Positions 4,909 through 24,700 of a stretch of 64,000 bases of DNA are shown in pieces. Source of the DNA: Chloroherpeton thalassium ATCC 35110 (lineage in GTDB: Bacteria; Bacteroidota; Chlorobiia; Chlorobiales; Chloroherpetonaceae); NCBI RefSeq assembly GCF_000020525.1, contig NC_011026.1, positions 2,648,001 through 2,712,000 on the forward strand. The letters are read 5' to 3'. Position 1 is the first letter of the stretch. Each line of letters starts with the position of its first letter. Made by a program: the position numbers and the translations under genes. The notes under the pieces are model-generated. The model was not told the origin of the DNA and made no database searches. It saw nothing but the letters and a program-made list of their open reading frames with translations.

Positions 4909-6108
4909 CTAAGGTTTTCGAGCGGATAAAATTGTAATCGGGTTATGGTTTCCTAACGTGAGCAAAATGGGTTCGTTGAGCAAAAAGCCCATGTTCCGCA
5001 CCGCCGCTTTGAAGTCGTCCGCGCTCGCCTGCTTCACGGCGTTGATGGCCACGCGCCCGCCCGATGCGAGCAAGGGGTTGAGGCGGCTGAGCATCTCTTC
5101 AATTCGCCCGCCGTGTCCGCCGATGAATGCGGCATCCAACTTTGTGCTTTGGGCGAAAAGGCTTTTTATTTCAACATCAAAAAAATCTTGCATCACCAAC
5201 TGAACGCCGGGCGCACGAAATCGGCGGGAATTTTCTTCAAAAATCTCCTCGCATTCCGGGCGCTTTTCGAACGCCGTGATTTGCAAGTGCGGAAACAGCA
5301 GTCGCGCTTCGATGGCAATCGAGCCGGTGCAAAAACCGATGTCCCAAAAAGTTCGTGCAGATTTCAGTTCAAGCTGCGAGAGCGTCGCCAAGCGAAATGG
5401 CATTTTGGTAATCATGTTCGGGCGACCGGGCAGGCCGCGAAAGGCATCTTCGGGAATGCCGAAATAGCTCGGCGCGTCGTCCGTTTTTTGCAGAATAACG
5501 GAATTTAATTCATTGAAATTTTCCCGAAGCACGTCTTTAAGGGCGAATGTGCGAATCCGTTCATCCGCGCCGCCGAGCGCCTCGCCGACGGTCATTTCAT
5601 ATTCTGTGAAGCGGTAATCGAGCAGGCGTTCGGCAATGCGAGCAGGCGTTTTGCGCTTGTCCGTCAGCACGCCGATGAGCGCCTCACCGCGAATGAGCGC
5701 GGCATCCAATTCCGCCCAACTGCGTCCCGTGACGGAGGTATTGGCCATCTGCTGATACGGCTTGCCGAGCCGCTGCGCCAAAAGCTGCAAGCTGTTGAAG
5801 GTCGGAAAATATTGGAAGGCCGCATCGGGAAACGCGCGTTGCAAGGTCGCCCCGAAGCCGTAAAAAAGCGGGTCGCCGGAGGTAAAAACCAGCACGGACT
5901 CCGCCGCGCGTTCCAATGCGGAGAGCGTCTCCGAAAGCGGCGCTTTGATGTTGACCCACTCATACCCGCCCGGAAGACATGCGTCCACAATCAATTTATG
6001 ACGAACGCCACCGGCAAACACCCGATGCGCCCCAATCGCTTCTTGCACTTCTTCCGAGAACTGCGGCGCGGGATTATCACTGAGTCCGACAAGGACAAAT
6101 TTTTTCAT
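4909..6108 (-). CDS. cobL: Precorrin-6Y C5,15-methyltransferase (decarboxylating), CbiE-CbiT fusion
   Basis: This 399-residue fusion methylates C5 and C15 of (cobalt-)precorrin-6B and decarboxylates the C12 acetate. Residues 1-200 are the CbiE tetrapyrrole methylase half, with FTSGDPLFYGFG as the glycine-rich loop. Residues about 225-399 are the CbiT half, a Rossmann methyltransferase with the SAM motif DIGFCTGSIAIEA followed by FIGGHGGRIEEML. Length and order match CobL. The start ATG overlaps by four bases the stop of a PD-(D/E)XK protein gene at 6105, so this enzyme may depend on read-through translation from an unrelated upstream gene. Downstream, an opposite-strand TIR-WD40 gene separates it from cbiG-cbiF. 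Confidence 0.92.
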   Translation of the reverse strand: MKKFVLVGLSDNPAPQFSEEVQEAIGAHRVFAGGVRHKLIVDACLPGGYEWVNIKAPLSETLSALERAAESVLVFTSGDPLFYGFGATLQRAFPDAAFQYFPTFNSLQLLAQRLGKPYQQMANTSVTGRSWAELDAALIRGEALIGVLTDKRKTPARIAERLLDYRFTEYEMTVGEALGGADERIRTFALKDVLRENFNELNSVILQKTDDAPSYFGIPEDAFRGLPGRPNMITKMPFRLATLSQLELKSARTFWDIGFCTGSIAIEARLLFPHLQITAFEKRPECEEIFEENSRRFRAPGVQLVMQDFFDVEIKSLFAQSTKLDAAFIGGHGGRIEEMLSRLNPLLASGGRVAINAVKQASADDFKAAVRNMGFLLNEPILLTLGNHNPITILSARKP

Positions 6109-7486: not shown

Positions 7487-8899
7487 TCAAACATCCCGTC
7501 CCGGCATCATTGCGGGCGCGTCGGCGTAGCTGAATGCGGCGTTGACGATCGTGGCCGCGACGGAGCTGCCGCCCTTTCGCCCTTCTACAATTGCTTTCGG
7601 AATGTTCGCCAGCGATTTAAGTCGCCATTTGGATTCTTCCACATTGACGAAGCCGACCGGTGCGCCGACAATGCCCGTCGGTGTCGCCTTGCCGCTTCGC
7701 ACGAGCGCGACCAGCTCGATGAGCGCCGTCGGTGCATTGCCGATGACGAAGAGCGCGGTCGGATGCTCTTCTACGGCCAGCCGAATGCCCGCTTGCGTGC
7801 GCGTGATGCCGTGCTTTTCGGCCATTTCCGGCACGCGCGGGTCGCTGAGGTAGCACATCGCCGTGACCGAATGTTTGGAAAGTGCGGCCTTGCGCAAACC
7901 GGAAAGCGCCATCGTGACATCGGTGACGATGACCGCGCCGCCCGCCGTCAGCTTTTCATGCCACGTTGCAATCGCGCCCGGCGAGGTGTAGAAAAGGTGC
8001 TCGTATTCAAAATCGGCGGTGGTGTGAATCGTGTGAATCATCGCCCAAAGCTTGTCCGTCGGGTAATCGTGACTTTGCAACTCGCCATAAATGGTCTGAA
8101 AACTTTTTCGCATGATGGACTGACCGATGGGCAGCGCCTCTTCCGACGATTCCGGCTCTTCGGCAAAATAGCCGCGCGGTGTGATGATGCGGTTTCCCGC
8201 CACGAACGATTGCGAATTACCGATAATCAGCAGGCTAAACATATCGAGCGTTTCGGGGTCAAACTCGCCGAGCGTGCTAACCTCAAGCGTTTCTTCCGGT
8301 CTGGAAACTTGCCGCGCAATGCCGACAGGCGCCTTCGGGTCGCGCTCGCTAAGAAAAATTTCCTTCAGGCGATGCAGTTGCCAATAGCGCTCCCTGCTTT
8401 TCGGGTTAAAGACCGCCGTCACAAAGTCGGCTTCCGCCGCTGCACGAATCCGGCGCTCGATTTTCTTCCAAGGCGTGAGCAAATCGGAAAGCGAAATCAC
8501 GCAAAAGTCGTGATTAATCGGCGCGCCAAACTTTGCCGCTGCTGCTTGTAGCGCACTGATTCCAGGCAAAACTTCAATCTCAATTTCCGTTACCTCATTT
8601 TTCGCAGCATGTTCTAAAATGAGCGAAGCCATCCCATAAATGCCAGCATCACCAGAACTAATCACCGTTACCTGATGTCCTTCTTTTGCCAAATCAAAAG
8701 CTTTTTCTGCGCGAGCTGTTTCCTGCTTCATTCCGTTACTGATGCGCAGGGCGTCGGCGGGAATTAAATGTTCGATTAACTCGAAATAGTAGCGGTAGCC
8801 AACAATTGCGCTGGCGTTTTCAATCGCATGCCGGACTTCTCCGGTTAGCAAATTTTCGTGACCCGGGCCTAAACCCACAACGGTAATTTTTCCTGACAT
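7487..8899 (-). CDS. CbiH-CbiC fusion: precorrin-3B C17-methyltransferase / precorrin-8X methylmutase
   Basis: Residues 1-245 of this 470-residue protein are CbiH/CobJ: VVGLGPGHENLLTGE, SSGDAGIYGMA and NPKSRERYWQL. This part contracts the ring and methylates C17. Residues about 260-470 are CbiC/CobH: MIHTIHTTADFEY holds the conserved histidine of the 1,11-methyl migration, followed by IVTDVTMALSGLR and GAPVGFVNVEESK. The fusion links two non-adjacent pathway steps. The ATG at 8899 is only 6 bp from the cbiL stop, so the two are in one transcript. Downstream lie an R1 repeat, the antitoxin-like gene and a nuclease-fold gene that separate it from cobL. Confidence 0.93.
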   Translation of the reverse strand: MSGKITVVGLGPGHENLLTGEVRHAIENASAIVGYRYYFELIEHLIPADALRISNGMKQETARAEKAFDLAKEGHQVTVISSGDAGIYGMASLILEHAAKNEVTEIEIEVLPGISALQAAAAKFGAPINHDFCVISLSDLLTPWKKIERRIRAAAEADFVTAVFNPKSRERYWQLHRLKEIFLSERDPKAPVGIARQVSRPEETLEVSTLGEFDPETLDMFSLLIIGNSQSFVAGNRIITPRGYFAEEPESSEEALPIGQSIMRKSFQTIYGELQSHDYPTDKLWAMIHTIHTTADFEYEHLFYTSPGAIATWHEKLTAGGAVIVTDVTMALSGLRKAALSKHSVTAMCYLSDPRVPEMAEKHGITRTQAGIRLAVEEHPTALFVIGNAPTALIELVALVRSGKATPTGIVGAPVGFVNVEESKWRLKSLANIPKAIVEGRKGGSSVAATIVNAAFSYADAPAMMPGRDV

Positions 8900-8905
8900 G
8901 GTTTT

Positions 8906-9649
8906 TTAAACTTGAAATGGTGTTTTGATATGGCGAGAGAAAATTAAGAGCGAGAAATACGGGATGGTGCGACCTTTGAGTCGTTCAATTTGCGAAGTAA
9001 AAAAAGCGTCCGGTGTGCCAATGCGCTCGGCATAAAGAAACGGTCGGTTCGCCCTTTCCAGAAAGTCAACGATTTCGTGGCGAATGGTTGAAAGCTTCAT
9101 AATCACGACGCTTTCGAACGACGCGAGATAGCTATTAAGCTCGGCGACACTTTCAAGCTGCGATAGTACGATAAGCTTATCCTGTTGAAGTGAAATTGGA
9201 AGTTGCGCCGCCGCGCCCGCTGCAATGAACGCCGGAACGCCCGCAATCAATTCAACTGTCATGTTTGCGGCTTGAAATCGCTCGAGCAAGTAGCCGAAGG
9301 TGCTGTAAAAACTGATGTCGCCTTCGGTGCAAATCACCACATCGAGCCCTGCGTTGTAATCATCGCGGATAAGCTCAAATGCTTCATCATAAACGCGGCC
9401 TGCGTGCTGGCGATTTTTGTTCATGGGAATGTGAAGGCCGTGCAAGCGTTCGGGCGGCAAGCCGTAGTTTTTGAGAATTTCAAGCGAAAAACTGCTCAGC
9501 TGCCCCGACTGCGAAACGCTGCCCGGAAAGTAAATTTTATCGGCCTCTTTCAGTCGATTCAAGCCTTTGACCGTAATCAATTCCGGGTCGCCCGGCCCGA
9601 GCGCCACGCCCGTGATTCTTCCGATATGTGATGCTTTTTTGTTGTTCAA
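8906..9649 (-). CDS. cbiL: Precorrin-2 / cobalt-factor II C20-methyltransferase
   Basis: This SAM-dependent methylase adds the C20 methyl group to (cobalt-)precorrin-2. The 247-residue protein has the family signature [20 protein letters not shown] near the N-terminus, CTEGDISFYSTFGYL as the second loop, and ELIAGVPAFIAAGAA. No ATG exists near the expected N-terminus, so the start must be a rare codon; TTG at 9649 gives MNNKKASHIGRI. It is followed within 6 bp by the cbiH-cbiC fusion and preceded by cbiX and an R1 repeat. Its annotation as CbiL rather than CobI follows from the CbiX and CbiG neighbours. Confidence 0.92.
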   Translation of the reverse strand: MNNKKASHIGRITGVALGPGDPELITVKGLNRLKEADKIYFPGSVSQSGQLSSFSLEILKNYGLPPERLHGLHIPMNKNRQHAGRVYDEAFELIRDDYNAGLDVVICTEGDISFYSTFGYLLERFQAANMTVELIAGVPAFIAAGAAAQLPISLQQDKLIVLSQLESVAELNSYLASFESVVIMKLSTIRHEIVDFLERANRPFLYAERIGTPDAFFTSQIERLKGRTIPYFSLLIFSRHIKTPFQV

Positions 9650-9683
9650 AACGGTTTTTTGATTAAATCTTTAGCGCTGCTGA

Positions 9684-9764
9684 GTCATTCTGAGGATTCT
9701 CATCCGAAGAATCCAGCGTAACCGGATGAATGGATGCTTCGCCTAAAAGCGGCTCAGCATGACA
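9684..9764. repeat. Palindromic intergenic repeat, family R1, copy 2
   Basis: The ends are GTCATTCTGAGGATTCT and GGCTCAGCATGACA, with internal CCGAAGAATCC and GGATGCTTCGCC arms. It starts about 35 bp upstream of the cbiL start and stops 10 bp before the 3' end of cbiX, so it occupies nearly the whole intergenic space within the operon and could affect mRNA processing or stability there. Confidence 0.85.
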
Positions 9765-9774
9765 AGTTGTTTCC

Positions 9775-10671
9775 TCAATGCCGATGTCCATGACCATGCC
9801 CGCCACCACCGTGTCCATGATGATGATGGTGACCATGACCATGTCCGTGATGATGATGGTGATGTTCGTGGTGCGAGTGCGCTTCGGGATCGAAGGTTTT
9901 CATCAAGTCCACCTCGCCCGACACAACTTTCGCAATGGCTTTTTCTACCGTTTCGCAAAGCAGGCCGTCCGATTCGAGCGGCTCGGTGATGATGATTTCC
10001 TTGTCCGATTCAGCTTGGAAAGCTTTCACCGCCTCATCGATTCTTTGCGAATACACGCCCGGGAAAAACATCAGCGGATTGGCTACAATGCGCTTGTGCG
10101 ACAAGTTGTCCATGAAAGACAGCATCTCCGAAACCGACGGCGACGTCATGCGACTGACGAAGCCATACGCGCCGAACCCGAAGCCGGATTTTTCCCAAAT
10201 CAATCGGCTGAGCTTGGCCGCATCACCGTTGGCTTCAGGGACGGATGCGCCGACGGGAATCGAGAGCAGCGCCGTTTCTTTTTTCGCGGCCTCGTCAAGG
10301 TCGGGACACGCGGCCTCGATGCGCTTGACGGCTAAATCGATAATTTCGTCCGTCGCGCCGATGAAGCTGCCTAAGTGGATTTTCAGCCCCGAAAACTTTT
10401 CTTCAAACTCGTGCATCATGGCTGGCATGTCGTGTTGAAGATGTACGCCGGTGAAAAGCAAAATCGGTTGGGCGAAAATTTCACGCACGCCGTTTTTATA
10501 CATTTTGCCGATTGCTTCTTCATACGTCGGCTCGGAAAGCTCTAAAAATCCGGCTTCCACAGCCACTTGCGGGTTACGCTTTTTGAGGTCATCGGCGAAG
10601 CGCAAAAACGCTTGCGCACCGGCTTCAAGGCGCGAACCATGTCCGCAAATCAACCATCCTTTATCGCTCAT
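9775..10671 (-). CDS. cbiX: Sirohydrochlorin cobaltochelatase with extreme histidine-rich tail
   Basis: This enzyme inserts Co2+ into sirohydrochlorin, the first committed step of the early-cobalt pathway. The 298-residue protein starts MSDKGWLICGHGSRLEAG, where GHGSR contains the metal-handling histidine of CbiX/CbiK chelatases. The repeated half contains FAQPILLFTGVHLQHDMP and later GAYGFVSRM. The last about 35 residues are almost only His and Gly, for example HHEHHHHHHGHGHG, a likely cobalt or nickel reservoir. I chose the ATG at 10671 because the upstream in-frame extension to 10803 lies inside cobA and is shadow sequence. The start overlaps the cobA stop by 11 bases, so the two are coupled. 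Confidence 0.92.
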   Translation of the reverse strand: MSDKGWLICGHGSRLEAGAQAFLRFADDLKKRNPQVAVEAGFLELSEPTYEEAIGKMYKNGVREIFAQPILLFTGVHLQHDMPAMMHEFEEKFSGLKIHLGSFIGATDEIIDLAVKRIEAACPDLDEAAKKETALLSIPVGASVPEANGDAAKLSRLIWEKSGFGFGAYGFVSRMTSPSVSEMLSFMDNLSHKRIVANPLMFFPGVYSQRIDEAVKAFQAESDKEIIITEPLESDGLLCETVEKAIAKVVSGEVDLMKTFDPEAHSHHEHHHHHHGHGHGHHHHHGHGGGGHGHGHRH

Positions 10672-11443
10672 TTGTAAGTCCGTTTTGAATTGTTTGAGAA
10701 AGTAAAACTTCGGTCGGCTGGGCATGTTTTCCCATGAGAAAGATTGCCGGCGTTTTAAGGTCTGTTTGGGCGAGCGTTTGAGCAATCGTTTCCAGCGTGC
10801 CACAAATCATCTCTTGGTCGGGATAAGACACGCGCGAGACGGCACAAACCGGCGTCTCGCACGGAACACCGACGGAGATAAGTTTTGCGGCCACATGTTC
10901 AAGATTTTTCAGTCCCATGTAAAGCACGAGCGGCGTACCGGCTTTCATCAAAAGCGCGACGGCCTCGAGATGTTCCAGCGTATATTCCGCCGTGTGGCCC
11001 GTGCAGAAAAGCACCGACGAGCTTTTGTAACGCTCGGTAATCGGGATGTGGCAAAGGTTCGCCGCCGCAATTCCTGCCGAAATGCCCGGAATAACCTCCA
11101 CATCGATATTGTGCTTCAAAAGCGCCCGCACCTCCTCGACGCCGCGCCCAAAAATGAACGGGTCGCCCGATTTAAGCCGCACGCATCGCTTGCCTTCGAG
11201 CGCGTGCGAGACAAGCAGGCGATTGATTTCGTTTTGGCGAACGCTCTGATCTTGCTTGTCTCCGAGCCGCTTGCCGACATAAATTTTCGTCGCCGACTCG
11301 GGAATGAAATCCATAATGCCTTGCGAAATCAAAGAATCGTGCAAAACGACTTCGGCCTCTTTGAGCCGACGATGCGCCTTGAGCGTCAAGAGTTCGGGGT
11401 CGCCCGGCCCTGCGCCCACAATCGAAACTTTTCCTTTAACCAT
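10661..11443 (-). CDS. cobA: Uroporphyrinogen-III C-methyltransferase (SUMT)
   Basis: The enzyme uses two SAM to convert uroporphyrinogen III to precorrin-2, the branch point for cobamide and siroheme. The 260-residue protein carries [33 protein letters not shown] and VIPGISAGIAA, the three diagnostic loops, and MGLKNLEHVA. The size fits a single-domain SUMT without a CysG dehydrogenase domain, so precorrin-2 oxidation to sirohydrochlorin must be done elsewhere. It lies 18 bp downstream of bluB and overlaps cbiX by 11 bases. Confidence 0.94.
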   Translation of the reverse strand: MVKGKVSIVGAGPGDPELLTLKAHRRLKEAEVVLHDSLISQGIMDFIPESATKIYVGKRLGDKQDQSVRQNEINRLLVSHALEGKRCVRLKSGDPFIFGRGVEEVRALLKHNIDVEVIPGISAGIAAANLCHIPITERYKSSSVLFCTGHTAEYTLEHLEAVALLMKAGTPLVLYMGLKNLEHVAAKLISVGVPCETPVCAVSRVSYPDQEMICGTLETIAQTLAQTDLKTPAIFLMGKHAQPTEVLLSQTIQNGLTNER

Positions 11444-11461: not shown

Positions 11462-13026
<1,565 letters not shown>

Positions 13027-13067
13027 TTTATCGTTAGTGTTTTCGCTTTTTTTCAATACCAAATCGA

Positions 13068-13236: not shown

Positions 13237-14097
13237 TCAATCCTTCCCGTTGTTCCGCATCGCTCGGTTTAGCTCCTTGCGGGCTTGCGAGATGGTGAGC
13301 GCGGGCGCGGTGAACTCGAAGCCGTCCTTTGTTTCAAGGATTTCCATCAGATGGCCGATTCGGGTTAAGCGAAGCTGTGCGCCGCGCAGCATCTCTTTAT
13401 CGGCGAACATCTCCCGAATGCCGCCTTGAAAAATCGCTTTGCCCTCGCTCATGACGATGCCCGCGTCGCAGTACAGCGCAACCGTGTCGAGGTCGTGCGT
13501 GGCGATGACGAGCGTAAGGCCAAGCTCTTCGGCAAGGCTTTTGACGAGCTTCATCATCTCGCTCGTGCCGACGGGGTCCAAGCCGGCGGTCGGTTCGTCC
13601 AAGACCAAAACCTCCGGTTGCATGACCAGCACGCCCGCTATCGCCACGCGCTTTTTTTGCCCGAAGCTCAGCCAATGCGTCGGTTTGTCCTTGAGCGGCG
13701 CGACACCCGTTTTTTCCATGATGCGCCGCACCCGCTCATGCACTTCCTTTTCCGGCAAGCCCAAGTTCATCGGCCCGAACGAAATGTCTTCATAAACGCT
13801 TGCCGAAAAAAGTTGATGGTCGGGCGACTGAAACACCATGCCCACATTTTTGCGCAGTTCCAACAGCCCTTTGGCCGAATAATCCAGCGGCTTGCCGTTG
13901 CGCAAAATTTGCCCCGATACGGGTTTTAAAATTCCGTTCAGCGTCAAAAGCAAGGTTGATTTGCCCGCGCCGTTTCCGCCCAAAATTGCCGTTGCCGAGC
14001 CTTTTTTAATGGAAATATTCAGGTCATTTAAAGCCTCTGTACCGTCGGCATAGCGATAGCAAACATGCCGGGTTTCCAAAATCGTCGACTCGCGCAT
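13237..14097 (-). CDS. cbiO: Energy-coupling factor cobalt transporter ATPase
   Basis: This is the ATP-binding subunit of the CbiMNQO cobalt uptake system. The 286-residue protein starts MRESTILETRHVCYRYADGT. It carries Walker A LGGNGAGKSTLLLTLNG, the Q-loop MVFQSPDHQLF, a signature region LSFGQKKRVAIAGVLV and Walker B VLVLDEPTAGLDP, followed by ATHDLDTVA. The N-terminal extension to 14184 falls inside cbiQ, so I chose the ATG at 14097, whose A is shared with the cbiQ TGA stop (TGATG). It is the last gene of the transporter unit; an R2 repeat follows. Confidence 0.93.
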   Translation of the reverse strand: MRESTILETRHVCYRYADGTEALNDLNISIKKGSATAILGGNGAGKSTLLLTLNGILKPVSGQILRNGKPLDYSAKGLLELRKNVGMVFQSPDHQLFSASVYEDISFGPMNLGLPEKEVHERVRRIMEKTGVAPLKDKPTHWLSFGQKKRVAIAGVLVMQPEVLVLDEPTAGLDPVGTSEMMKLVKSLAEELGLTLVIATHDLDTVALYCDAGIVMSEGKAIFQGGIREMFADKEMLRGAQLRLTRIGHLMEILETKDGFEFTAPALTISQARKELNRAMRNNGKD

Positions 14098-14888
14098 CAA
14101 CGGCCTCCTTCCGCGACATTCAGCCCGACGGTCAGCGCGATAAGCAATGTGTGCGTCACAAGCGAAATCGCGTAGCCTTGCCATGGCGTCCGATACTCGT
14201 GCGAGACCGTGCGCAAATCGCCTTGATAGCCACGCGCCTCAAGCCCGGTGTAAAGCGCCTCCGACGCGCTATACGCCCGAACGAACAGCCGCGAGACGAG
14301 CGTGCCGAACGAACGAAATCGGCTCTTGAGCGTCGCATTTCCCAACCGAGCGTTTTGCGCCGTCGAGATAATTTCCGCCGTCTCGAGAAAAAGAAAGGTG
14401 AAGCGATAAATCAAACTCATCAATTCGCAAAGCAACTTGGGGACGCGCAATTTGCGGAGCGCGTTTAAAAGATCAATCATCGGCGTGCTGAGCGCCAGAA
14501 AATAGAGACACGAGACCGCGCCCAACGCTTTGAAAAATACCTCCACAGCCTTGCTTAACCCGATTTCCGAAATGCCGACATGAACGCCGCGATAAAGCAT
14601 AATCGAGGCGATGAATGTTTTCTGTGAAGTCGCAACGGTGACCGCGATAGCGGCCGTCCCGATAAACAGAAATGCGATGGGAACGAGCATCAGTTTTAGG
14701 AAAATGCGCACGGATGTTTTTCCGATTTGCACACTGCCGACGGCCATTACGCCCAGCACGACGAGCGAAATCGCGGGCTTGCTCGCCCACAGGCAAATCG
14801 CCAAGGCCGGCAGCGCAAACAGCATTTTTTGCATCGGATCGATTTCGCGCAACCGTGAAAGGTAAGCTTGGTTATCTAAATTGAACAT
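14097..14888 (-). CDS. cbiQ: Cobalt ECF transporter transmembrane subunit
   Basis: This 263-residue integral membrane protein begins MFNLDNQAYLSRLREIDPMQKMLF. Several hydrophobic segments (such as KMLFALPALAICLWASKPAI) are followed by the cytoplasmic coupling helices that in CbiQ contain A-R-G/A motifs; here ARLGNATLKSRFRSF and LEARGYQGDLR can be read. It bridges CbiM/CbiN and the CbiO ATPase. It overlaps cbiO by one base and follows cbiN after a 113-bp gap in which no other gene is seen. Confidence 0.9.
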   Translation of the reverse strand: MFNLDNQAYLSRLREIDPMQKMLFALPALAICLWASKPAISLVVLGVMAVGSVQIGKTSVRIFLKLMLVPIAFLFIGTAAIAVTVATSQKTFIASIMLYRGVHVGISEIGLSKAVEVFFKALGAVSCLYFLALSTPMIDLLNALRKLRVPKLLCELMSLIYRFTFLFLETAEIISTAQNARLGNATLKSRFRSFGTLVSRLFVRAYSASEALYTGLEARGYQGDLRTVSHEYRTPWQGYAISLVTHTLLIALTVGLNVAEGGR

Positions 14889-15001: not shown

Positions 15002-15313
15002 TCACCCGTTTTCCTTCCGGCAGCGCAGGTAGCAAAGGCCGTAGCCAATGACGCCCGCCCCGATGGCCGCTTGCAAGCCGAAAATCAAGCTTTCAATTTC
15101 CCCGCTTGGCGGCTCCCAAAGTGGCTCAAACCAAGGTTCGTAATTCGGCTGAATCTCCGTGATAAAATCTCTTGCCTTGCCGTCCGCACCCTCAAAATCG
15201 GCCTCCTTGTTGAAGTAAAGCGGGAAAAGCGTGAGCGCGACGATAAGCGCAACAATGGCTATATATCCAAATGCTTTGTTTTGCTTTGGTGATGAGTCGG
15301 TCATGTTCGTCAT
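15002..15313 (-). CDS. cbiN: Cobalt transporter subunit CbiN
   Basis: This small membrane protein of 103 residues has two transmembrane helices ([18 protein letters not shown] and [20 protein letters not shown]) flanking an extracytoplasmic loop with [10 protein letters not shown] and [17 protein letters not shown]. That loop is characteristic of CbiN, which helps load cobalt into CbiM. The ATG at 15313 overlaps the cbiM stop by four bases. The N-terminus is a little longer than usual. Confidence 0.9.
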
Positions 15314-16056
15314 TTGGTTGAAATGATGTTCAGTTCGCGTAATTCCTCTTGACTATGCGAAACCAGCGTGTTGAAAATAAGCACGGTTAGCAGCCCTTCG
15401 ATAACGGCGAGCGGGACTTGCGTAACAGCGAAAATGCCCATGAATTTCAGGGCGGAGGCGTACATGCCACCTTGTTCGGCTGGGAATGCCGCTGCAAGCT
15501 GCAACGAAGTCGTCACATAAGTAAGCAAATTCCCCAAAGCCGCGCCGAGAAAAACCGCCGTGCCTTGATGGGCGATGGTTTTCTGAACAAGTTTAAACAC
15601 CACATACGAGACAATCGGACCTACAACCGCCATCGAAAAGGCGTTTGCGCCAAGCGTTGTCAGGCCGCCGTGTGCGAGCAGCAAGGCTTGAAACAGCAAA
15701 ACGATACTGCCCAAAATGCTCATCACGCTCGGCCCGAAGAGCATCGCCCCCAGCCCGACGCCTGTCGGATGCGAGCAGCTTCCCGTGATGGACGGCAACT
15801 TGAGCGCCGAGAGCACAAACACAAACGCGCCCGCCATCGCCAGCAAAAGCTTTAATTTTGGGTTCTGCTGAACGATTTTTTTGATGGCAAAAAATCCCTT
15901 TACCTGAAACGGCAGCACCACCGCCCACCAAAAAAGACTCCACGCCGGCGGAAGAAAGCCTTCCATGATGTGCATCCCGTAAGCGTCCGTTATGGGGAGC
16001 AAAAACAGGATAGGTAAAATAATCCAAGCTATTTTTCTAATATACTTTGAGTTCAT
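15310..16056 (-). CDS. cbiM: Cobalt-specific substrate-capture protein CbiM
   Basis: This is the S-component of the cobalt ECF transporter, 248 residues with about seven transmembrane segments. After an N-terminal hydrophobic leader the sequence reads [19 protein letters not shown], the invariant Co2+-binding N-terminus that is exposed after leader removal. Further signatures are [20 protein letters not shown] and [22 protein letters not shown]. It is coupled to cbiN by a four-base overlap. A 90-bp AT-rich gap separates it from the upstream TIM-barrel gene, so it may have an additional promoter. Confidence 0.94.
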
Positions 16057-16145: not shown

Positions 16146-17168
16146 TCATTCTGAGCTGAAATGAGGCGTCGAAGATGTTATACATGTTTGAAAAATGCTT
16201 CCGAGCGCCTTCTTCTGCAAGGCGATTTTCTCCTTCCATTCTGAAATACTCCGATAAGCAAATTCAAAAACGACATGGTCGGGAGAAATCAGCTCGAAAA
16301 GTTCTGCAATGGCGGCGTCTTCAAAAGCGTTGTGTTGGTCAATTTGACGAACATGACGCGCGGCAATGGAGAGCTTTTTCCAAAAATCCTGTTCTCCATT
16401 GAATGTTTGCCCTTTTGTTTGCCGGACATAATCTCTGGAAATGCTTTTTGTCAAATGAACCGCTTTGATTAAATCGCGATGCCGCCCGAGTGATTTGATT
16501 TCGTTCAGTAAATACTCGATGCCTTCTCGCTCGGTTCCGAGCGATTGATTTTTGTTGAGCAAATGGCCGGTGTCCAGCACGATGCCGGTTTTGGCATAAT
16601 CAATTTGGCCGAGTAGAAAATCAATCTCGCTTGTGCTGTCCAAGCGGAAGTTTTCCGGCCACCAAAGATTTTCCAGCAACACCCATCCTTGGTATGGCGT
16701 CTCGGCCAGCACCGCGTTCAGCACTTCCGCCGAAAGCGCAAGCGTGGATTCCATTTTCCAAGGCGGCTGCCAATTGAACACATAATCCAATTCGTAATGC
16801 ACTGGATGAAACACGACATATGGGACATGAAACTGATGGGCAAGTTCAAGTTGGTGGCGATAACAGTCCACGATGGCGTCTCGGGTTGTGCCGCCGTAAA
16901 ATGTGCGAACGGTTTCCTCGTCGCCGAAAATCTCTATCAGCTTTGCGCGATCGTTTCGCCAAATGGCTTCCAACATGATGAAAAAGCGCAAATGCACACC
17001 ACCGATCAGTTCCGTTGGAATAGACTGGTAGGGATAATCTTTTCCGACGGGATAAAGCTCGAATCCTGAAAATCCGGTTTCCGCCAAGAGCTTTTCGGCG
17101 CTTGCCCAATCGTGATTGATCAGCTCCAAATCGTCGCTGTACGTGCTGATGTTTAAAAGAAAATTCAT
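16146..17168 (-). CDS. TIM-barrel protein of the xylose isomerase / AP endonuclease 2 fold, riboswitch operon member
   Basis: This is a 340-residue protein of the sugar-phosphate isomerase/epimerase superfamily. Putative metal ligands can be read on successive strands: a glutamate in VLLENLWWPENF, Asp and His in IVLDTGHLL, a histidine in IKAVHLTKS and a glutamate in VVFEFAYRS. There is also an upstream VVFHPVHYE. The start overlaps the stop of the nitrilase-like gene by four bases, so the two are co-translated. The reaction is unknown. Its place after cbiZ in a B12-riboswitch operon suggests a role in cobamide side-chain or lower-ligand processing, which is inference. Confidence 0.72.
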   Translation of the reverse strand: MNFLLNISTYSDDLELINHDWASAEKLLAETGFSGFELYPVGKDYPYQSIPTELIGGVHLRFFIMLEAIWRNDRAKLIEIFGDEETVRTFYGGTTRDAIVDCYRHQLELAHQFHVPYVVFHPVHYELDYVFNWQPPWKMESTLALSAEVLNAVLAETPYQGWVLLENLWWPENFRLDSTSEIDFLLGQIDYAKTGIVLDTGHLLNKNQSLGTEREGIEYLLNEIKSLGRHRDLIKAVHLTKSISRDYVRQTKGQTFNGEQDFWKKLSIAARHVRQIDQHNAFEDAAIAELFELISPDHVVFEFAYRSISEWKEKIALQKKALGSIFQTCITSSTPHFSSE

Positions 17169-18754
17169 TTTGACTCCCCGTTTTGCGTGCTGACCACCAC
17201 CTCAATTTTGAATTCATCCGCTTCCGTGTCAGCCTTTTTCGGGGTTAAGTGAAGCAATCGTTCAAAATCGATGCGGTCGTGAAAACGTTTTTTGCGCGTG
17301 CTTTTCGTCTGAAGCGTCTCTTGGCAAGGCATTTCGTCAAAGCTGACGGATTCCAGCCAAGGACTGTGGCCGACGGGCGGCTGGCAGATAAATGCGCGAT
17401 TAGTTGCCGCCACCGCCACACAGACCTGCTCGATGGTTTTTGCGCCAAGGCAAATTTGCATGTTCTCATCGAGCGATTCGGCGGAGCAAATCACCAAGTC
17501 GCAGCCGAGCTTCGATGCGCTCATCGAGAATTCAGGATGAATGAGTTCTTCGGGAAATGCAATCGCCACGCGCGCATGATCGATGTCCACCATGCAAAGG
17601 GAATCTGCACCCAGCTCATTGGCATTTCGATGCAGCGTTAGCTCGCCGTTTTTTTCGGCCAACACAATCATTTTCGGCTTGCCTTCAACTTCAACACCAG
17701 CGCAAATATTCACATCGAAGGCCGTCGCAATCAAACTCAGTTGCCGAATGTCTTTCGCATTTTGGATGCGTCCCATTGGAAAAACAAATAAGCTCGGATT
17801 TCCCTGCTTGCGATGCGCCTCGATTTGGCATTGAATGAACGCATGTGAGAAGACTTCTTCTTTTGGGGCGGTAAATGTAAATACATCCAGCTCGCCAGGT
17901 TTTGGAAGGTTGTAATACGTCGTCAAATCCGAAGCGTAGCGCATGTCCAAATACATCGGCGCATAAAGTGCGGGATTTCGCTCGCTGAGCCAGTCGCGCC
18001 CGTTTTTATGAATTTTTCCGGCTTCTGTGAGAGGCAGTTCCACATAAAAAACGGCTGAATCTGCGCTTTTCCGGGCAAGCAATTCCTCACCGTTCGGTGA
18101 ATATGCGCACGACCACGCCTCGTGGCACGACATGGCCAAATCCACGCCGCCGCGATTGCACGCTGCCACAAACAAATCGTTCTCTACGGCACGCGCTCGC
18201 CAAAGTACTTTTGGGTCCATGCCGGAGGACGGCCAATTGGCCGGCACAATCAAGAGGTCTGCGCCGCACATCGCTGCTACGCGCGGAATCGGGCCGAAAT
18301 ACGTATCGGAGCAAATCAGCAGCGCAATTTTTCCCCAAGGCGTTTCAAACGTGTTTTCCTGAGTCGGTTTGCCGGGACACGCCCAACGCGTTTCCGCCGT
18401 AATTTTATGAAACAAGCAAACCGTATCGCCTGAAGGTGAAAGCGCGATGGCTGAGTTATAAAAAATGTTTGTTGCGGGATCGCGCTCGGCAAAGCCAAGC
18501 ACGATATAAACGCCGTATTTTTCGGCAAGCTGCCTCAAGGCTTGAACGGTTTCGCCGTCTGCTGTTTCTGTAAATTTTGCGATGTCGTCCCGCGAACCGA
18601 AGCTATATCCCGAAACGGAAAGCTCCGGTGCCACAATGATGTTTGCGCCCGATAGTGCAGCCTCTTTGGCATAGTTTAAAATTTCGTTTCGGTTCTCGTT
18701 CGGTGCTTTGTGCTTGACGCTGAGATGCAGTAATCCAAGTTTTAATCTGTCCAT
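17165..18754 (-). CDS. Tandem nitrilase-superfamily protein, second domain lacking catalytic residues
   Basis: The first domain (about residues 1-280 of 529) is a carbon-nitrogen hydrolase with a readable triad: Glu44 in IIVAPELSVSGYSF, Lys117 in CLFHKITAETRW and Cys148 in LLICSDTYFGPIPR. The second domain (about 290-510) has the same fold order but reads FVFPMGRIQN where Glu is expected and VAIAFPEELIHPE where Cys is expected, so it is probably structural or binding only. I chose the ATG at 18754, which overlaps the cbiZ stop by 13 bases; the upstream extension to 18949 lies inside cbiZ. As an amidase beside CbiZ, it may act on corrinoid amides or on a nucleotide-loop fragment. That role is inferred. 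Confidence 0.8.
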   Translation of the reverse strand: MDRLKLGLLHLSVKHKAPNENRNEILNYAKEAALSGANIIVAPELSVSGYSFGSRDDIAKFTETADGETVQALRQLAEKYGVYIVLGFAERDPATNIFYNSAIALSPSGDTVCLFHKITAETRWACPGKPTQENTFETPWGKIALLICSDTYFGPIPRVAAMCGADLLIVPANWPSSGMDPKVLWRARAVENDLFVAACNRGGVDLAMSCHEAWSCAYSPNGEELLARKSADSAVFYVELPLTEAGKIHKNGRDWLSERNPALYAPMYLDMRYASDLTTYYNLPKPGELDVFTFTAPKEEVFSHAFIQCQIEAHRKQGNPSLFVFPMGRIQNAKDIRQLSLIATAFDVNICAGVEVEGKPKMIVLAEKNGELTLHRNANELGADSLCMVDIDHARVAIAFPEELIHPEFSMSASKLGCDLVICSAESLDENMQICLGAKTIEQVCVAVAATNRAFICQPPVGHSPWLESVSFDEMPCQETLQTKSTRKKRFHDRIDFERLLHLTPKKADTEADEFKIEVVVSTQNGESK

Positions 18755-19884
18755 TTTTCCTCGTATCCGATTGCGCATGATTTGTATATGAATTCCAGAA
18801 GGACGCTGTTTTCTAAACTGAGCGGTTCGTTTGAAAGCAGCTCGTAGTAAAGTCCCGTTCGGCCAATTTTTTGCGAAATGGATGCGGCGAGCATCGCACC
18901 TTGTTGGGTTAAAATTTCCTTCGTGCAAGATTCCGGCAAAATGCCCCACACGATTTTATCACGCACATGTACGAACGAACACGCCGCCGCTACGACGAGC
19001 GGTTCACGGTTTAACCCTTCAAAATTTTTGGCAAAAATCTCCGATAGCGCTTCCGGCAAGTGCCGTGCGATGCCGGCTTGCATGGACGCCTTCGTTGCGC
19101 CGAAACGCTCGATATGCACTTTTATGGAACGCTGATTTTCCGGTGTGAGCGCCTGTTGTAATGCCAATGTTTTGCGAATTGCGCGAGAAACGCTTTTGCC
19201 AATCAGTTCGCCCAATTTGGAATGCTTGCCTGCGCTCGTAAGCGGCGTTTCGCCAGTGAGCGGACAGGCGACGGCGATTTGATCTGTGCCGGTGCCAGTC
19301 GCAAGGCCATCAGAATAGCGTGAATTTGCACCAAGTTCTTGTAAAACGGTGGTTTTGGCTTCGGTGGCGGTCATCACGGTTCGCACCATTGCGCCCTTCG
19401 TCACTTCTTGGTTGATTAAAACCATTGTGTTAATCGTGCCGTGCGGCTCGCGTCCGTTGGTGACGAGCGGTTCGTACGAGCCTTTTTTCTCCCAAACGGA
19501 GGCCGGATCGCCAGCGCGTCCAGCGTTCGTTTCCACACCGCCGGTGGCGATGGCCACAACTTCCAAATCGCGGAAACGCGCGGTTTCAATTGCGGCGCAG
19601 TTCATATTGGCTGCTGTGCCGAGCGAAACGGTTCGTTCTGGCAAATCATGCGCCTGACAGGTTTCTTCTAAATAAATTTCCGGCGTTTTGGTTACTGATT
19701 TCAATGATGAGCGATGATGCGCCGCCGGTTCGCAGAGCTGATGATTGAACATACACTCAATATCGTCGTAAAGTCCGCCGTTGACTCTGCACGTTGAAAT
19801 CACGCGATATGTTTTTTTAAATCGTACGAATACGATTTTTTCATTGCGATGCACTTCTGCGTCGCCATAAGTTCCTAATTTCAT
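18742..19884 (-). CDS. cbiZ: Adenosylcobinamide amidohydrolase
   Basis: CbiZ cleaves the amide between the corrin ring and the aminopropanol linker, yielding adenosylcobyric acid, and in some bacteria remodels pseudocobalamin. The 380-residue protein carries the family hallmarks AHHRSSLKSV near the N-terminus, AANMNCAAIE, and especially IATGGVETNAGRAGDPA followed by GTINTMVLIN and DGLATGTGTDQIAVA. It has a longer C-terminal region than short CbiZ proteins, with another 150 residues after the core. The ATG at 19884 was chosen; TTG at 19908 is possible. It lies 92 bp downstream of the corrinoid-binding lipoprotein gene and overlaps the nitrilase-like gene. Confidence 0.9.
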   Translation of the reverse strand: MKLGTYGDAEVHRNEKIVFVRFKKTYRVISTCRVNGGLYDDIECMFNHQLCEPAAHHRSSLKSVTKTPEIYLEETCQAHDLPERTVSLGTAANMNCAAIETARFRDLEVVAIATGGVETNAGRAGDPASVWEKKGSYEPLVTNGREPHGTINTMVLINQEVTKGAMVRTVMTATEAKTTVLQELGANSRYSDGLATGTGTDQIAVACPLTGETPLTSAGKHSKLGELIGKSVSRAIRKTLALQQALTPENQRSIKVHIERFGATKASMQAGIARHLPEALSEIFAKNFEGLNREPLVVAAACSFVHVRDKIVWGILPESCTKEILTQQGAMLAASISQKIGRTGLYYELLSNEPLSLENSVLLEFIYKSCAIGYEEKWTD

Positions 19885-19976
19885 AAGCTTTTGTTCGTTA
19901 TCTATCAAACTCGGTAAGGGAAATGGAGCCTGCTTTTCACTTTAGCCAAATCATAGCTCCCTCTTCTTGCCAAATC

Positions 19977-21230
19977 CTATTTAACCTGCTGGTAAAATGT
20001 TGTTTCCTGAACATCCGACGGGAGCTGTTCTTTTAGCTCTGGATGAAAAATGCTTATTAAATCTCCGAGAACTAAGTGTGGCTTCACGATGCCGTATTCC
20101 CAGTAAGCATTTCCCCCGTTCGCGTTAAGCTGTTTGTTGTTATTGAAAACGCGCCCGCTTCTGACGGATGAGAAATCTTTGAACCGACTGTCTTTTGCAA
20201 ATAATTCTTTCATGGAAGTGAGCGTGCCGGGGTTGATCCAAAAATCAGCTGCCAGGGCAACCGGATAAACGGCCTCGAAGTCCAGATTTAAGCTGCCTGT
20301 TCCTTTTTTACTGCTCCAGTGATAGCTTGCGCCCGCATCTTTTAAAAGGCAGGCGCCATAGCTTTCCCCAGCAGGAACAAACCATGAGTCTTTATAAGCC
20401 AGCCCTGTCAAAACACTTGGACGGACTGAAACGGAATCTGTCAGTTTGGCAAAGGATTGGTACGCCGACTCGATCTGGGCAAATTCTTCATTTGCAAGCG
20501 ATTCTTTATCTAACAATGCGGCCAACAATTTCATCCATTCGGCGCGACCCAACGGTGAGTTTTCCAGCCACTCACCAATAACCACCACAGGCGAGCCAGA
20601 TTCTATCAGAGTTTGATATTGGGAAAATTTTGTAGTTGGCAGCACCGTTACCAGCACCACATCCAACTGGCAAGCGAGCATCACCTCAAGATTTGGGCTA
20701 AACGCGTCGCCAATTTCTGAAATTTCACCCGCATCGATTCGCGATTTTATTTTAGGGGAATTGATAAACTCGGGAGTTGCCATTCCGACAATATTTTCTT
20801 CTGCGCCCAGCAGGGAAAAAAATCCGGCGTGCGTGGTGGTAAAAATAGCGGCTCGCTCAATTGGGGTTCGAACAACAGTCCAACTACGATACTGTTCAGG
20901 AACTGTGAAGTTTTTCGGCGCTAACACATACCGTAATGTATCGGCTTTATCTTGAAAGCCTTTGAAGATTCTGATGAGCTTTACACCATTTTCATAGTGA
21001 ATATCAAACCCTTTGGCGTATTTAATTTCCGATAATGGCTTTGTAAAAATGGCTAAGTCTGCGCTTGGCTTTTGAGCAGCTTGATGTGCTTTGTCAGCGC
21101 TTGGCTTTGAGCAAGCGTTGCATAGCAGAAGTAAGTATAGTAACGAGAGAAGGAATAAAATACGCGCTTTGCCAAAAAAGAAAAACGCACACTTTACCCC
21201 ACTTTGTGGAATATGTGTTTTTGCTTTCAT
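19977..21230 (-). CDS. BtuF-like corrinoid ABC transporter substrate-binding lipoprotein
   Basis: The roughly 417-residue protein has a hydrophobic leader (FLLSLLYLLLLCNAC) ending in a lipobox cysteine, so it should be an exported lipoprotein. The mature part has the class III periplasmic binding-protein pattern of iron-siderophore and B12 carriers: GAEENIVGMATPEF, SPNLEVMLACQLDVVLV and SGSPVVVIGEW, then a C-terminal lobe with GASYHWSSKKG. It is the first gene after the cobalamin riboswitch (start about 42 nt from its end), which supports corrinoid as ligand. No permease or ATPase partner (BtuC/BtuD) is in the window. The ATG at 21230 is preferred over an upstream GTG at 21248. Confidence 0.83.
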   Translation of the reverse strand: MKAKTHIPQSGVKCAFFFFGKARILFLLSLLYLLLLCNACSKPSADKAHQAAQKPSADLAIFTKPLSEIKYAKGFDIHYENGVKLIRIFKGFQDKADTLRYVLAPKNFTVPEQYRSWTVVRTPIERAAIFTTTHAGFFSLLGAEENIVGMATPEFINSPKIKSRIDAGEISEIGDAFSPNLEVMLACQLDVVLVTVLPTTKFSQYQTLIESGSPVVVIGEWLENSPLGRAEWMKLLAALLDKESLANEEFAQIESAYQSFAKLTDSVSVRPSVLTGLAYKDSWFVPAGESYGACLLKDAGASYHWSSKKGTGSLNLDFEAVYPVALAADFWINPGTLTSMKELFAKDSRFKDFSSVRSGRVFNNNKQLNANGGNAYWEYGIVKPHLVLGDLISIFHPELKEQLPSDVQETTFYQQVK

Positions 21231-21271
21231 GTCTGTTTTGCTTTGCACCCGAAGCGAATGAAAATATTTTG

Positions 21272-21446
21272 CGGCAGGTCTTCTGACTTTCCCGAATCCG
21301 ATCGGCCTTCCCTTCCAAAGAAAGTGGCTTACTCGCCGGATTGCTCCATTGATAAAACGAAAATCAATGCAGGATTACAGCAGCGGGGACTGTCTCGGAC
21401 TTTCACCGAATTCCCTATTCGTTGCCTAACGCAACACCGCAAGAAG
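21272..21446 (-). promoter_or_regulatory. Cobalamin riboswitch
   Basis: Read on the minus strand, the segment has the conserved core GGGAATTCGGTGAAAGTCC, then GACAGTCCCCGCTGCTGTAA, and ends with AAAGTCAGAAGACCTGCCGC, the well-known 3' element of AdoCbl aptamers. An upstream P1/P2-like helix (TTGCG...) precedes it. The aptamer ends about 42 nt before the ATG of the BtuF-like gene, so control is probably translational or by early termination. It should repress this import and salvage operon when coenzyme B12 is abundant. Confidence 0.95.
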
Positions 21447-21450
21447 GGAA

Positions 21451-21479
21451 ATTATACAGAAAAGAAGCGAGCCTGCCAA
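21451..21479 (-). promoter_or_regulatory. Sigma70-type promoter driving the riboswitch operon
   Basis: On the minus strand TTGGCA (21479-21474) and TATAAT (21456-21451) are separated by exactly 17 nt. Transcription would start close to 21444, at the 5' edge of the riboswitch. This spacing and the perfect -10 box make it a strong prediction from sequence alone. Confidence 0.8.
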
Positions 21480-21723: not shown

Positions 21724-24700
21724 ATGCCATGCGACCGAAATGTCTTAACGAATGAAAAATACGCATTTACGGATTTGGTTGCGCTCTCCCGTTTGCAAGT
21801 CATGCTTGAGAATTTTTCTGAAATCACTGGATTTTCAACAGAATTGGTTTCATTTCCTGAGCAGACCCTACTCATACAAACCCGCTCTTATGAGGCTATC
21901 ACAAAAATTTTGAAAGCTTGCCCCAAGCAAGCAAGCCTTTTTCGGCAAACCCGTTTGGCACTCACCAATCAGCTTCAAGCAACAAAAACCTTATGTATTC
22001 ATCATTGTAAAAATGAACTCGTGCTGGGCGCGATTCCGGTTGTGGTAGAAGGGCTGCATCTTGCTGATTTTTTTTCGGGATATGTTTTCTTCGAACATCC
22101 TGATCATAACGCAGCTCAGAAACTTAGCGAGCAAGAACCATTATGCGAGAGCGAGATCTATCTTGAAGCCTTGCGCGAAATTCCCGTGGTTGCCGAAGCG
22201 ATGCTCAGAAAATCATTAGAGTTTTTAGCGCAAATGGTCAGTGCGCTCGCCCTGAAAGGCCTTGCTGAATTGAGGGAAAGAGAAGCAAAAAAGCTCATTC
22301 AACAAAACGAAGAAAATCTTCTCACAACACTAAACTCCATCGGCGATGCGGTAATTTCCACGGACTTGAATGGAAATATTGTACGCATTAACCGTGTGGC
22401 TGAATCGCTCACAGGCTATCGTTATGAAGAAGTTAAAGGCAAGCCGCTAACAAGCTGTTTTAGCATCTTCCATGCGAAAACTGGCAAGTTAGCCGAAGAT
22501 CCGGTTCAAAAGGTTTTAGAAATCGGAGAAATTGTTGCGCTATCAAACGATACGGTGCTTATTTCCAAACAGGGGAAAAAATATCAGATTGCCGACTCTG
22601 CCGCGCCGATCAAAGGCAGCGATGGAAAAACAACCGGCGTGGTGCTGGTTTTTCGAGATGTGAGCGAAGAATACAAAATGCGCCAAAAGCTCAAAGAAAA
22701 TGAAAAGCGATTGAAGCAAGCGCAGCGCATCGCGAAAATCGGCGACTTTACATGGAATGTGACGACTGGAAAGATTAGATGGTCGGAATCGCTTTTTGAC
22801 ATTCTTCAGTATGACAAATCAGAAGCGATTGATTACGCTAAAGTCAATGCAGAAATTCACCACCCACAAGATTTGCCACGAGTAACCCGCTGGCTCAACG
22901 ACGCTATTGCTTCTGGGAAAAACACACTTTCCCCCAACGAGTATCGACTCATTCGCAAAGACGGCCACATCATTTATGTGCGAGCAACCGGCGTCATTGT
23001 GAGAGATGAAAATAATTCTGTCAAAGTTTTCGCAACCGCACAAGATATTACCGAGCAGAAAGAAGCCGAACGAGAACGAGCGGCATTGGCGTCTTTTGTA
23101 CAAAACAGCCAAGACATTATTGTTGTGAAAGATTTAAACCGGCGGGTTGTGGCCACAAACATGGCATTTACCCTTGCCGCTGATAGAAAATCGATTTCAG
23201 AAATGCTCGGGAAAACAGATGCTGAAATTTTCAACATCCCTGAAGATGCCGATCCGATTCGCGCTTATATGTTGGACGATTTAAAAGCGATGAACTTGCC
23301 TGCTGGAGAGATGCTTGTTCGTGAAGAACCGGTGATTTTTCCTGGTGGCGAAGTTCGCACTTTTTTAACGCGCAAGTTTCCGATTCGTGATGACGCAGGC
23401 AATCCGATCTATGTTGGCATTATCTCGAACGATATTACCGAGCGAAAAGAGGCCAACCGGCTGCTCATAGAAAGCGAGGCGCGCTTCCGCCAGATTTATG
23501 AAAACATCTCGGCGGGCATTGCTGCCGTTTCGCTCGGCTTTCGAATTATCAGTGCCAATCAGGCCTATTGCCAAATGTTGGGTTATAGCGAGCAAGAACT
23601 GATTGGCAAACATCTTTCAGAGTTTACCCATCCTGAATCGTTAGAGGAAAACATCAACCAACAAACCCGTTTAGCCGCCGGTGAAATTGACCATTTTAGA
23701 ATGGAAAAGCAGTTCATTCATAAGTCCGGCAAATTGCTTTATGGGATACTTGATTCGAATCTGATTAGAAATCTAAGCGGCGAGCCGATTTATTTTCTTG
23801 GCAGCGTTGTCGATATCACCGAGAAAAAAGCTGCCGAAGAAGAAATCAGAGCGTCTGAAGCCAAATATAAATCCCTATTTGAAGGGATCAACGACGCGGC
23901 CTTCGTGCATCCAATAGATGAAGAACGTAAGAATTTTATTGAGGTCAATGAGACCGCGTGCAAATATTTGGAATACACCCGTGAGGAATTGCTAAAACTT
24001 TCGCCCAAAGACCTGACCCCAACTACCGATGTTACCGGTGCTCAATTTCGCGGAACTCGCGAAATAAGAGCTATACTCCTCAAAGAAAAACAGATTGTTT
24101 TCGAAATCGAGCTAGAAACTAAAAGCGGCAAGCGCATACCAGTAGAAATCAGCACGCGGGTTTTCCACATGGGCGGCGTACCATTTGCGCTTTCATTGGC
24201 GCGAGATATCACTGAGCGCAAACGAACCGAACAAGAACTGCACCGAATGGAAAAATTGGAAAGCATCGGGACACTTGCAGGCGGGATTGCGCACGATTTC
24301 AATAACCTTTTAATGGGAATTTTTGGAAAAATTTCTTTGGCCAAAACGGCGCTCGATAAAACACATCCAGCGGCTCGTTACTTAGATGGCGCAGAACAGG
24401 CGATGAATCGCGCAACCCGCTTAACCAAGCAATTGCTCACGTTCTCAAAAGGCGGTGCGCCGCTTAAAGAGCATGTCAACATTTTTGAACTGGTAGAAGA
24501 AATCACGCGCTTCGACCTTTCGGGCAGTAATGTAAAAGCGTTGTTCAATCAGCCGCAAAATTTATGGCTTGCGGATGTGGATAAGGGACAGATTCAGCAA
24601 GCTTTTTCAAACTTGATTATCAATGCAAGTCAGGCGATGCCTCGTGGCGGCCATCTCTACATTACCTTTGAAAATCGCGACGTGACAAATGCCAACAAAG

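Follow-up and report, generated by a model that had tools for sequence, protein, structure and literature searches.

A tandem nitrilase-superfamily protein linked to CbiZ in a riboswitch-controlled cobamide-salvage operon of Chloroherpeton thalassium

A cobalamin riboswitch precedes a cobamide-salvage unit

The genome of Chloroherpeton thalassium ATCC 35110 is a single contig of 3,293,456 bp (NC_011026.1), of which we analysed a stretch of 64,000 nucleotides, positions 2,648,001 to 2,712,000 (the window). Within it, the region 16146-21479, bounded exactly by the stop codon of a TIM-barrel gene (its product is termed TIM below) and the -35 hexamer of a promoter-like site, contains a cobalamin riboswitch and the genes for a BtuF-like lipoprotein, the amidohydrolase CbiZ, a tandem nitrilase-superfamily protein (NIT) and TIM:

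21451..21479, minus strand: promoter-like site TTGGCA-17-TATAAT, 11/12 in a consensus scan, directly before the riboswitch
21256..21456, minus strand: cobalamin riboswitch aptamer, RF00174, 92.6 bits against a gathering score of 31.5, E 1.1e-21
19977..21248, minus strand: BtuF-like lipoprotein, predicted to bind corrinoids (Peripla_BP_2, Pfam E 5.8e-17)
18742..19884, minus strand: CbiZ, adenosylcobinamide amidohydrolase (PF01955, E 4.9e-63, 213 bits against a cut-off of 27)
17165..18754, minus strand: NIT, 529 amino acids (aa) (PF00795, CN_hydrolase, E 8e-37, N half only)
16146..17168, minus strand: CbiR-like TIM barrel, 340 aa (AP_endonuc_2, PF01261, E 4.8e-13, 49.8 bits against a cut-off of 31.1)

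The riboswitch match covers the full model (1-189) and is the sole Rfam match above its gathering score in the window. The lipoprotein and CbiZ genes are separated by 92 bp, while CbiZ and NIT overlap by 13 bp and NIT and TIM by 4 bp. A preliminary description of this DNA had placed a promoter and a B12 riboswitch before four overlapping or closely spaced genes; the riboswitch score, the Pfam matches and the spacing bear this out, the promoter part being only suggestive, since shuffled sequence yields as many sites in the consensus scan as the one at 21479-21451. The riboswitch and the genes for the lipoprotein, CbiZ, NIT and TIM form a genuine cobamide-salvage unit. The families proposed for the first two proteins also hold: the lipoprotein combines its Peripla_BP_2 match with an N-terminal hydrophobic stretch that, by eye, ends in LLCNAC, and CbiZ, the only one in this genome, is a clear family member. 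For the lipoprotein, which matched no curated BtuF model in an NCBIfam scan, ATG 21230 is a likelier start than GTG 21248, and two paralogues are encoded in a second riboswitch operon of the genome (see below).

NIT carries one nitrilase-type triad and a degenerate second domain

In the N half of NIT, the catalytic triad E44-K117-C148 is kept in 25 of 25 full-length homologues. The C half matches a profile of the N half in hhalign (probability 95%, E 2e-8); it has no catalytic triad but shows invariant residues of its own (E408, K415, D419, H463, R487 and K489). Judged from these alignments, the C half is a degenerate, diverged nitrilase domain, and the protein is rightly described as a tandem, two-domain nitrilase, with the triad confined to its N half. 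Flags for a selenocysteine in the active site stem from the terminal stop codon, read as an internal TGA; residue 148 is a cysteine in all sequences.

The structural model of NIT (pLDDT 80.6) has nitrilase-superfamily amidases as its best PDB matches, including the Pyrococcus horikoshii amidase solved with glutaramide, and the N half lies closest, by sequence as well as by fold, to archaeal and bacterial amidases that act on simple primary amides. With the P. horikoshii and Nesterenkonia aliphatic amidases (6ypa, 4izs) it has the N-domain fold and the Glu-Lys-Cys triad in common, whereas these enzymes are single-domain proteins for simple amides and NIT adds a degenerate domain with its own conserved residues. 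No named equivalog was found for NIT among nitrilase, AguB, aliphatic amidase, formamidase, Nit1/2 and NAD synthetase, its NCBIfam scores lying far under cut-off (for example, 85.8 where 500 is required). Outside this setting, the closest tandem nitrilases, with about 28% identity, belong to operons of urea or short-amide ATP-binding cassette (ABC) transporters; given this identity and the different setting, a role in urea or amide transport, like that of the Rhizobium and Raoultella tandem nitrilases, was rejected.

NIT follows CbiZ between genomes and CobN within loci

Among 98 Chlorobiia genomes, CbiZ occurs in nine and NIT in the same nine (Fisher p ~6e-13, a value that, like the other co-occurrence p-value given below, ignores phylogeny). 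Eight of these genomes, identical for the two proteins, have TIM and a radical S-adenosylmethionine (SAM) protein; the remaining one (G041) has neither, and a contig end truncates its NIT gene (L013, L038). All nine are spread over four genera, and the distribution is patchy within two of them (3/21 and 5/65), which argues that the gene set moves as a block, gained and lost together. In the relatives it forms a single operon with riboswitches, in the order SBP-BtuC-BtuD-SBP-CbiZ-NIT-TIM-radical SAM-CobN-TonB-ChlD-ChlI-CobN (SBP, solute-binding protein), and in two of them (G027, G049) corrin-ring genes lie between NIT and TIM. C. thalassium has a second operon with its own cobalamin riboswitch:

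Genome positions ~2,925,670-2,947,280 (L084, L085): SBP-BtuC-BtuD-SBP-radical SAM-CobN-TonB-ChlD/ChlI-CobN

This operon is the relatives' operon minus exactly CbiZ-NIT-TIM. Since these three genes lie in the window, about 270 kb away, the co-retention of the set holds without linkage.

Beyond the class, NIT was found in 18 of 395 Desulfobacterota genomes and in Dethiosulfatarculus, giving 19. All 19 carry CbiZ, compared with 7 of 36 sampled NIT-negative genomes (p 2e-9), and TIM is present in 4/19 against 0/36. Thus, every NIT genome carries CbiZ (28/28; 9 Chlorobiia and 19 Desulfobacterota). At 26 NIT loci, neighbours within 8 kb on the same strand comprise CobN (17 loci), radical SAM (16), CbiZ (14), BtuCD (11), SBP (11), ChlI/ChlD (10), TonB (8) and TIM (7). 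Corrinoid-module genes of this kind are present at 22 of the 26; of the remaining four, two have a contig end no more than 700 bp away. The preliminary description had linked its two extra enzymes functionally to CbiZ, and this link stands: the NIT gene lies mostly inside cobamide gene sets and always in genomes with cbiZ. At the level of genomes NIT goes with CbiZ, and at the level of neighbourhoods with CobN and radical SAM, TIM being an optional extra; NIT belongs to a larger module of CbiZ, the radical SAM protein, CobN/ChlI/ChlD and BtuBFCD. Separately, many CbiZ domains of Desulfobacterota lie in open frames of ~670-1000 aa (including L115, L116 and L056), which may be ABC ATPase fusions.

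TIM is very probably CbiR

The top PDB matches of the AlphaFold2 model of TIM (pLDDT 95.4) are endonuclease IV structures. Nine residues, H59, H121, E166, D199, H202, H238, D277, H279 and E302, are invariant in 27 TIM sequences; four of these (E166, D199, H202 and H238) can be aligned with endonuclease IV directly, and the other five we take, from knowledge of that enzyme, to be its metal ligands as well. The 26 relatives, collected by a scan of genome contigs, come from Chlorobi, Desulfobacterota, Chloroflexi, Clostridia, Fusobacteria and others, and most of their loci, in four or more phyla, lie near genes for corrinoid uptake, CbiZ, CobN or the like. A search of 394 Bacteroidota genomes returned only the eight Chlorobiia. 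Matches in PLSDB "plasmids" of Fusobacterium and Acetoanaerobium fall in unannotated records of 2.1-2.6 Mb; NZ_CP084075.1 (2.1 Mb) and NZ_CP154629.1 (2.6 Mb), labelled as plasmids there, are probably chromosomes.

The barrel had been suggested to be a metal-dependent isomerase or lyase for which no characterised pathway was known. Neither part is supported: the fold and the invariant ligand residues are of endonuclease IV type, a sugar isomerase or lyase is rejected on that fold search and on the lack of any NCBIfam isomerase model match, and a matching enzyme was characterised in 2020. This is CbiR (Amuc_1679) of Akkermansia muciniphila, a PF01261 protein that cuts the phosphoribosyl bond of cobamides to give cobinamide-phosphate and alpha-ribazole, under anaerobic, reducing conditions and in a metal-dependent manner (PMC7733943). 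Its homologues occur chiefly in Chlorobi, Chloroflexi and Proteobacteria, a distribution that fits the TIM relatives; 80% of them adjoin cobamide genes, and nearly 20% of taxa with CbiR homologues also carry CbiZ (PMC7733943).

Because Pfam family, phyla, genomic setting, invariant metal site and endonuclease IV fold all agree, we consider it very probable that TIM is CbiR, a comparison made with the published description of Amuc_1679 (ACD05497.1) rather than with its sequence. The two have in common the AP_endonuc_2 barrel, the conserved His/Asp/Glu metal residues and the cobamide gene setting, while here, unlike in Akkermansia, TIM shares a riboswitch-controlled transcript with CbiZ and NIT. 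TIM might instead form a sister family that catalyses another corrinoid reaction, for instance as a phosphatase or as a diesterase acting on some other nucleotide loop, as identity within the TIM alignment falls to 26%; with family, reported phyla (PMC7733943) and setting all as in CbiR and the metal site invariant, this is improbable.

The module CobN and comparable systems

CobN1 of the module scores 759 bits to Mycobacterium tuberculosis CobN and 348 to HmuS. Since it is nearest to true CobN, its substrate is probably a corrin, and CobN's known substrate is no more than an a,c-diamide (PMC7689651). HmuS, which removes iron from heme (PMC12583661), is likewise a homologue of class-I chelatases that occurs with TonB/ABC uptake, and demonstrates that such proteins can remove metal; CobN1 differs from it in standing much closer to true CobN and in having ChlI/ChlD as partners. 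Heme de-chelation of the HmuS type was rejected as the function of the module on account of this similarity to CobN and the presence of CbiZ and cobalamin riboswitches.

Parts of the module have counterparts elsewhere. CbiZ-based remodelling in Rhodobacter sphaeroides and archaea shares PF01955 and the linkage to corrinoid uptake, whereas here the CbiZ gene runs into that of a nitrilase and is one part of a wider module with CobN and radical SAM. Operon-2 of Dehalobacter restrictus, whose protein levels rise 46-fold on average in corrinoid starvation, unites a BtuCDF-type transporter, two CbiZ, CobN and Mg-chelatase-type subunits; the text of that paper makes no mention of a nitrilase, a TIM barrel or a radical SAM protein (PMC4285132). 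In an Antarctic Chlorobium, cbiZ adjoins cobalamin transporters, and cobN lies in a separate region together with three Mg-chelatase genes; these are portions of the Chlorobi operon described above, again with no nitrilase mentioned (PMC8620254). A search of a literature collection for a nitrilase with cobalamin gene neighbourhoods found nothing.

NIT as a candidate corrin side-chain amidase

The ring of cobyric acid carries several primary acetamides and propionamides. Because these are the chemical type on which the nearest amidases act, NIT is most likely a corrin side-chain amidase. We propose that the operon serves corrinoid salvage and remodelling under an adenosylcobalamin riboswitch and that NIT deamidates the ring after CbiR and CbiZ and ahead of CobN-ChlID, a proposal that could equally well prove right or wrong. 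In this scheme, the lipoprotein, judging by its family, would capture corrinoids in the periplasm; TIM/CbiR, by homology, would cut the phosphoribosyl bond of imported cobamides, yielding cobinamide-phosphate and alpha-ribazole; and CbiZ would perform the known reaction of its family, removing aminopropanol to leave cobyric acid. NIT would then hydrolyse one or more primary acetamide or propionamide side chains, its C domain perhaps serving as a catalytically dead half that completes a nitrilase-type dimer within one chain, and the product would be a partly deamidated corrin of the kind that CobN recognises (in the aerobic pathway, hydrogenobyrinic acid a,c-diamide). From the second riboswitch operon, CobN together with ChlI/ChlD and the radical SAM protein may act next on the metal centre or the ring, cobalt being either removed, as HmuS does with heme iron, or inserted into salvaged metal-free corrins, and the stripped ring or recovered cobalt could re-enter the cbi pathway encoded directly downstream.

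Several observations weigh against this proposal. Cobyric acid from CbiZ is directly usable by the normal late pathway, which leaves the need for deamidation and a chelatase unexplained. Two loci (L113, L124) show no corrinoid neighbour of NIT despite contigs long enough to reveal one. NIT and TIM are also not obligate partners, as TIM turns up with no NIT in many phyla and 15 of the 19 Desulfobacterota with NIT lack TIM.

Alternatively, NIT and CbiZ could both be corrinoid amidohydrolases for one and the same secondary amide, that of aminopropanol at the f side chain, with NIT perhaps acting on another substrate, such as the cobinamide-phosphate made by CbiR or pseudocobalamin-type cobamides. 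The nitrilase superfamily does include secondary-amide hydrolases, with pantetheinase among the weak matches of NIT; the two genes overlap by 13 bp; and CbiZ is substrate-selective, the R. sphaeroides enzyme cutting pseudocobalamin and not cobalamin, according to the work as cited in PMC7733943. With CbiZ present in every NIT genome, however, NIT is no replacement for it, its nearest structures and tandem relatives indicate primary-amide hydrolysis, and the association with CobN would be left unexplained, so that we regard this alternative as unlikely. Far less probable is a role of NIT and TIM in recycling or breaking down the nucleotide-loop fragment once it is released, an option offered by the preliminary description beside action on a ring amide and favoured by their position straight after CbiZ. 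The products in question, which are alpha-ribazole, aminopropanol and its phosphate, offer a nitrilase neither an amide nor a nitrile to attack, NIT often stands beside CobN rather than CbiZ, with several loci (L119-L123) having CobN/TonB and neither CbiZ nor TIM nearby, and TIM resembles endonuclease IV and the description of CbiR, not a sugar isomerase. Of the two options, action on a ring amide is therefore favoured.

NIT might also act as a glutaminase-like supplier of ammonia for re-amidation by CbiA/CbiP, without acting on the corrin. Consistent with this, NAD synthetase, whose glutaminase domain belongs to the nitrilase type, is among the weaker matches of NIT, and the genes preceding NIT in Dethiosulfatarculus read, by eye, like CbiP and CbiK. 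Most NIT loci, however, follow salvage and CobN genes rather than amidating enzymes, and CbiA and CbiP are established to have glutaminase domains of their own, making such a role very hard to credit beside side-chain deamidation of the corrin ring.

Genes around the unit

Downstream of TIM, further cobalt-uptake and corrin genes continue on the same strand:

15310..16056, minus strand: CbiM, S component of the cobalt energy-coupling factor (ECF) transporter (TIGR00123, E 4.1e-90)
15002..15313, minus strand: CbiN (TIGR01165, E 1.6e-30)
14097..14888, minus strand: CbiQ (TIGR02454, E 5.2e-49)
13237..14184, minus strand: CbiO (NF010157, E 6.8e-158)
12139-13062, minus strand: NAD-dependent epimerase-like gene, no close named family, between CbiO and BluB
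11462..12130, minus strand: BluB, 5,6-dimethylbenzimidazole synthase (TIGR02476, E 1.3e-80)
7487..11443, minus strand: corrin-ring genes CobA, CbiX/CfbA-like chelatase, CbiL and CbiHC
4909..6108, minus strand: CbiET (TIGR02467 and TIGR02469)

The gap between TIM and CbiM is 89 bp, and CbiM is probably on the same transcript as TIM upstream. The unit is thus not limited to four genes, as first described: CbiMNQO, BluB and the corrin-ring genes follow on its strand, besides the larger module to which NIT belongs. BluB is an oxygen-dependent 5,6-dimethylbenzimidazole synthase, yet its host, a green sulfur bacterium, is thought to be anaerobic. The chelatase (9775-10803) has 342 aa, its CfbA/CbiX match being confined to residues 49-163. 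Among the cbi genes (2695-4899 and 6105-6950) lie a plus-strand gene whose protein has weak matches of TIR type (Thoeris/retron-like) and a gene for an Rpn-family nuclease/transposase. On the other side, a 1215-aa multi-PAS hybrid histidine kinase (21724-25371) is transcribed divergently from the riboswitch operon.

Implications

The module is conserved and consists mostly of known parts, the lipoprotein, CbiZ and very probably CbiR, with NIT, which matches no named equivalog, as its strongly linked further component. Cobamide remodelling decides which microbes can share B12, and to our knowledge two remodelling hydrolases have been described, CbiZ and CbiR, both acting on the nucleotide loop. 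A third hydrolase that always accompanies CbiZ and mostly stands beside CobN and radical SAM suggests that some anaerobes also alter the ring. Tentatively, NIT may be the first corrin-ring side-chain deamidase, part of an anaerobic dismantling or re-metallation pathway (BtuBFCD, CbiR, CbiZ, NIT, radical SAM and CobN-ChlID) that returns foreign, metal-free or wrong-metal corrinoids to early intermediates. If true, this pathway would explain why anaerobes with an early-cobalt-insertion pathway keep the late-insertion CobN, and NIT makes the role of CobN-ChlID in these organisms directly testable.

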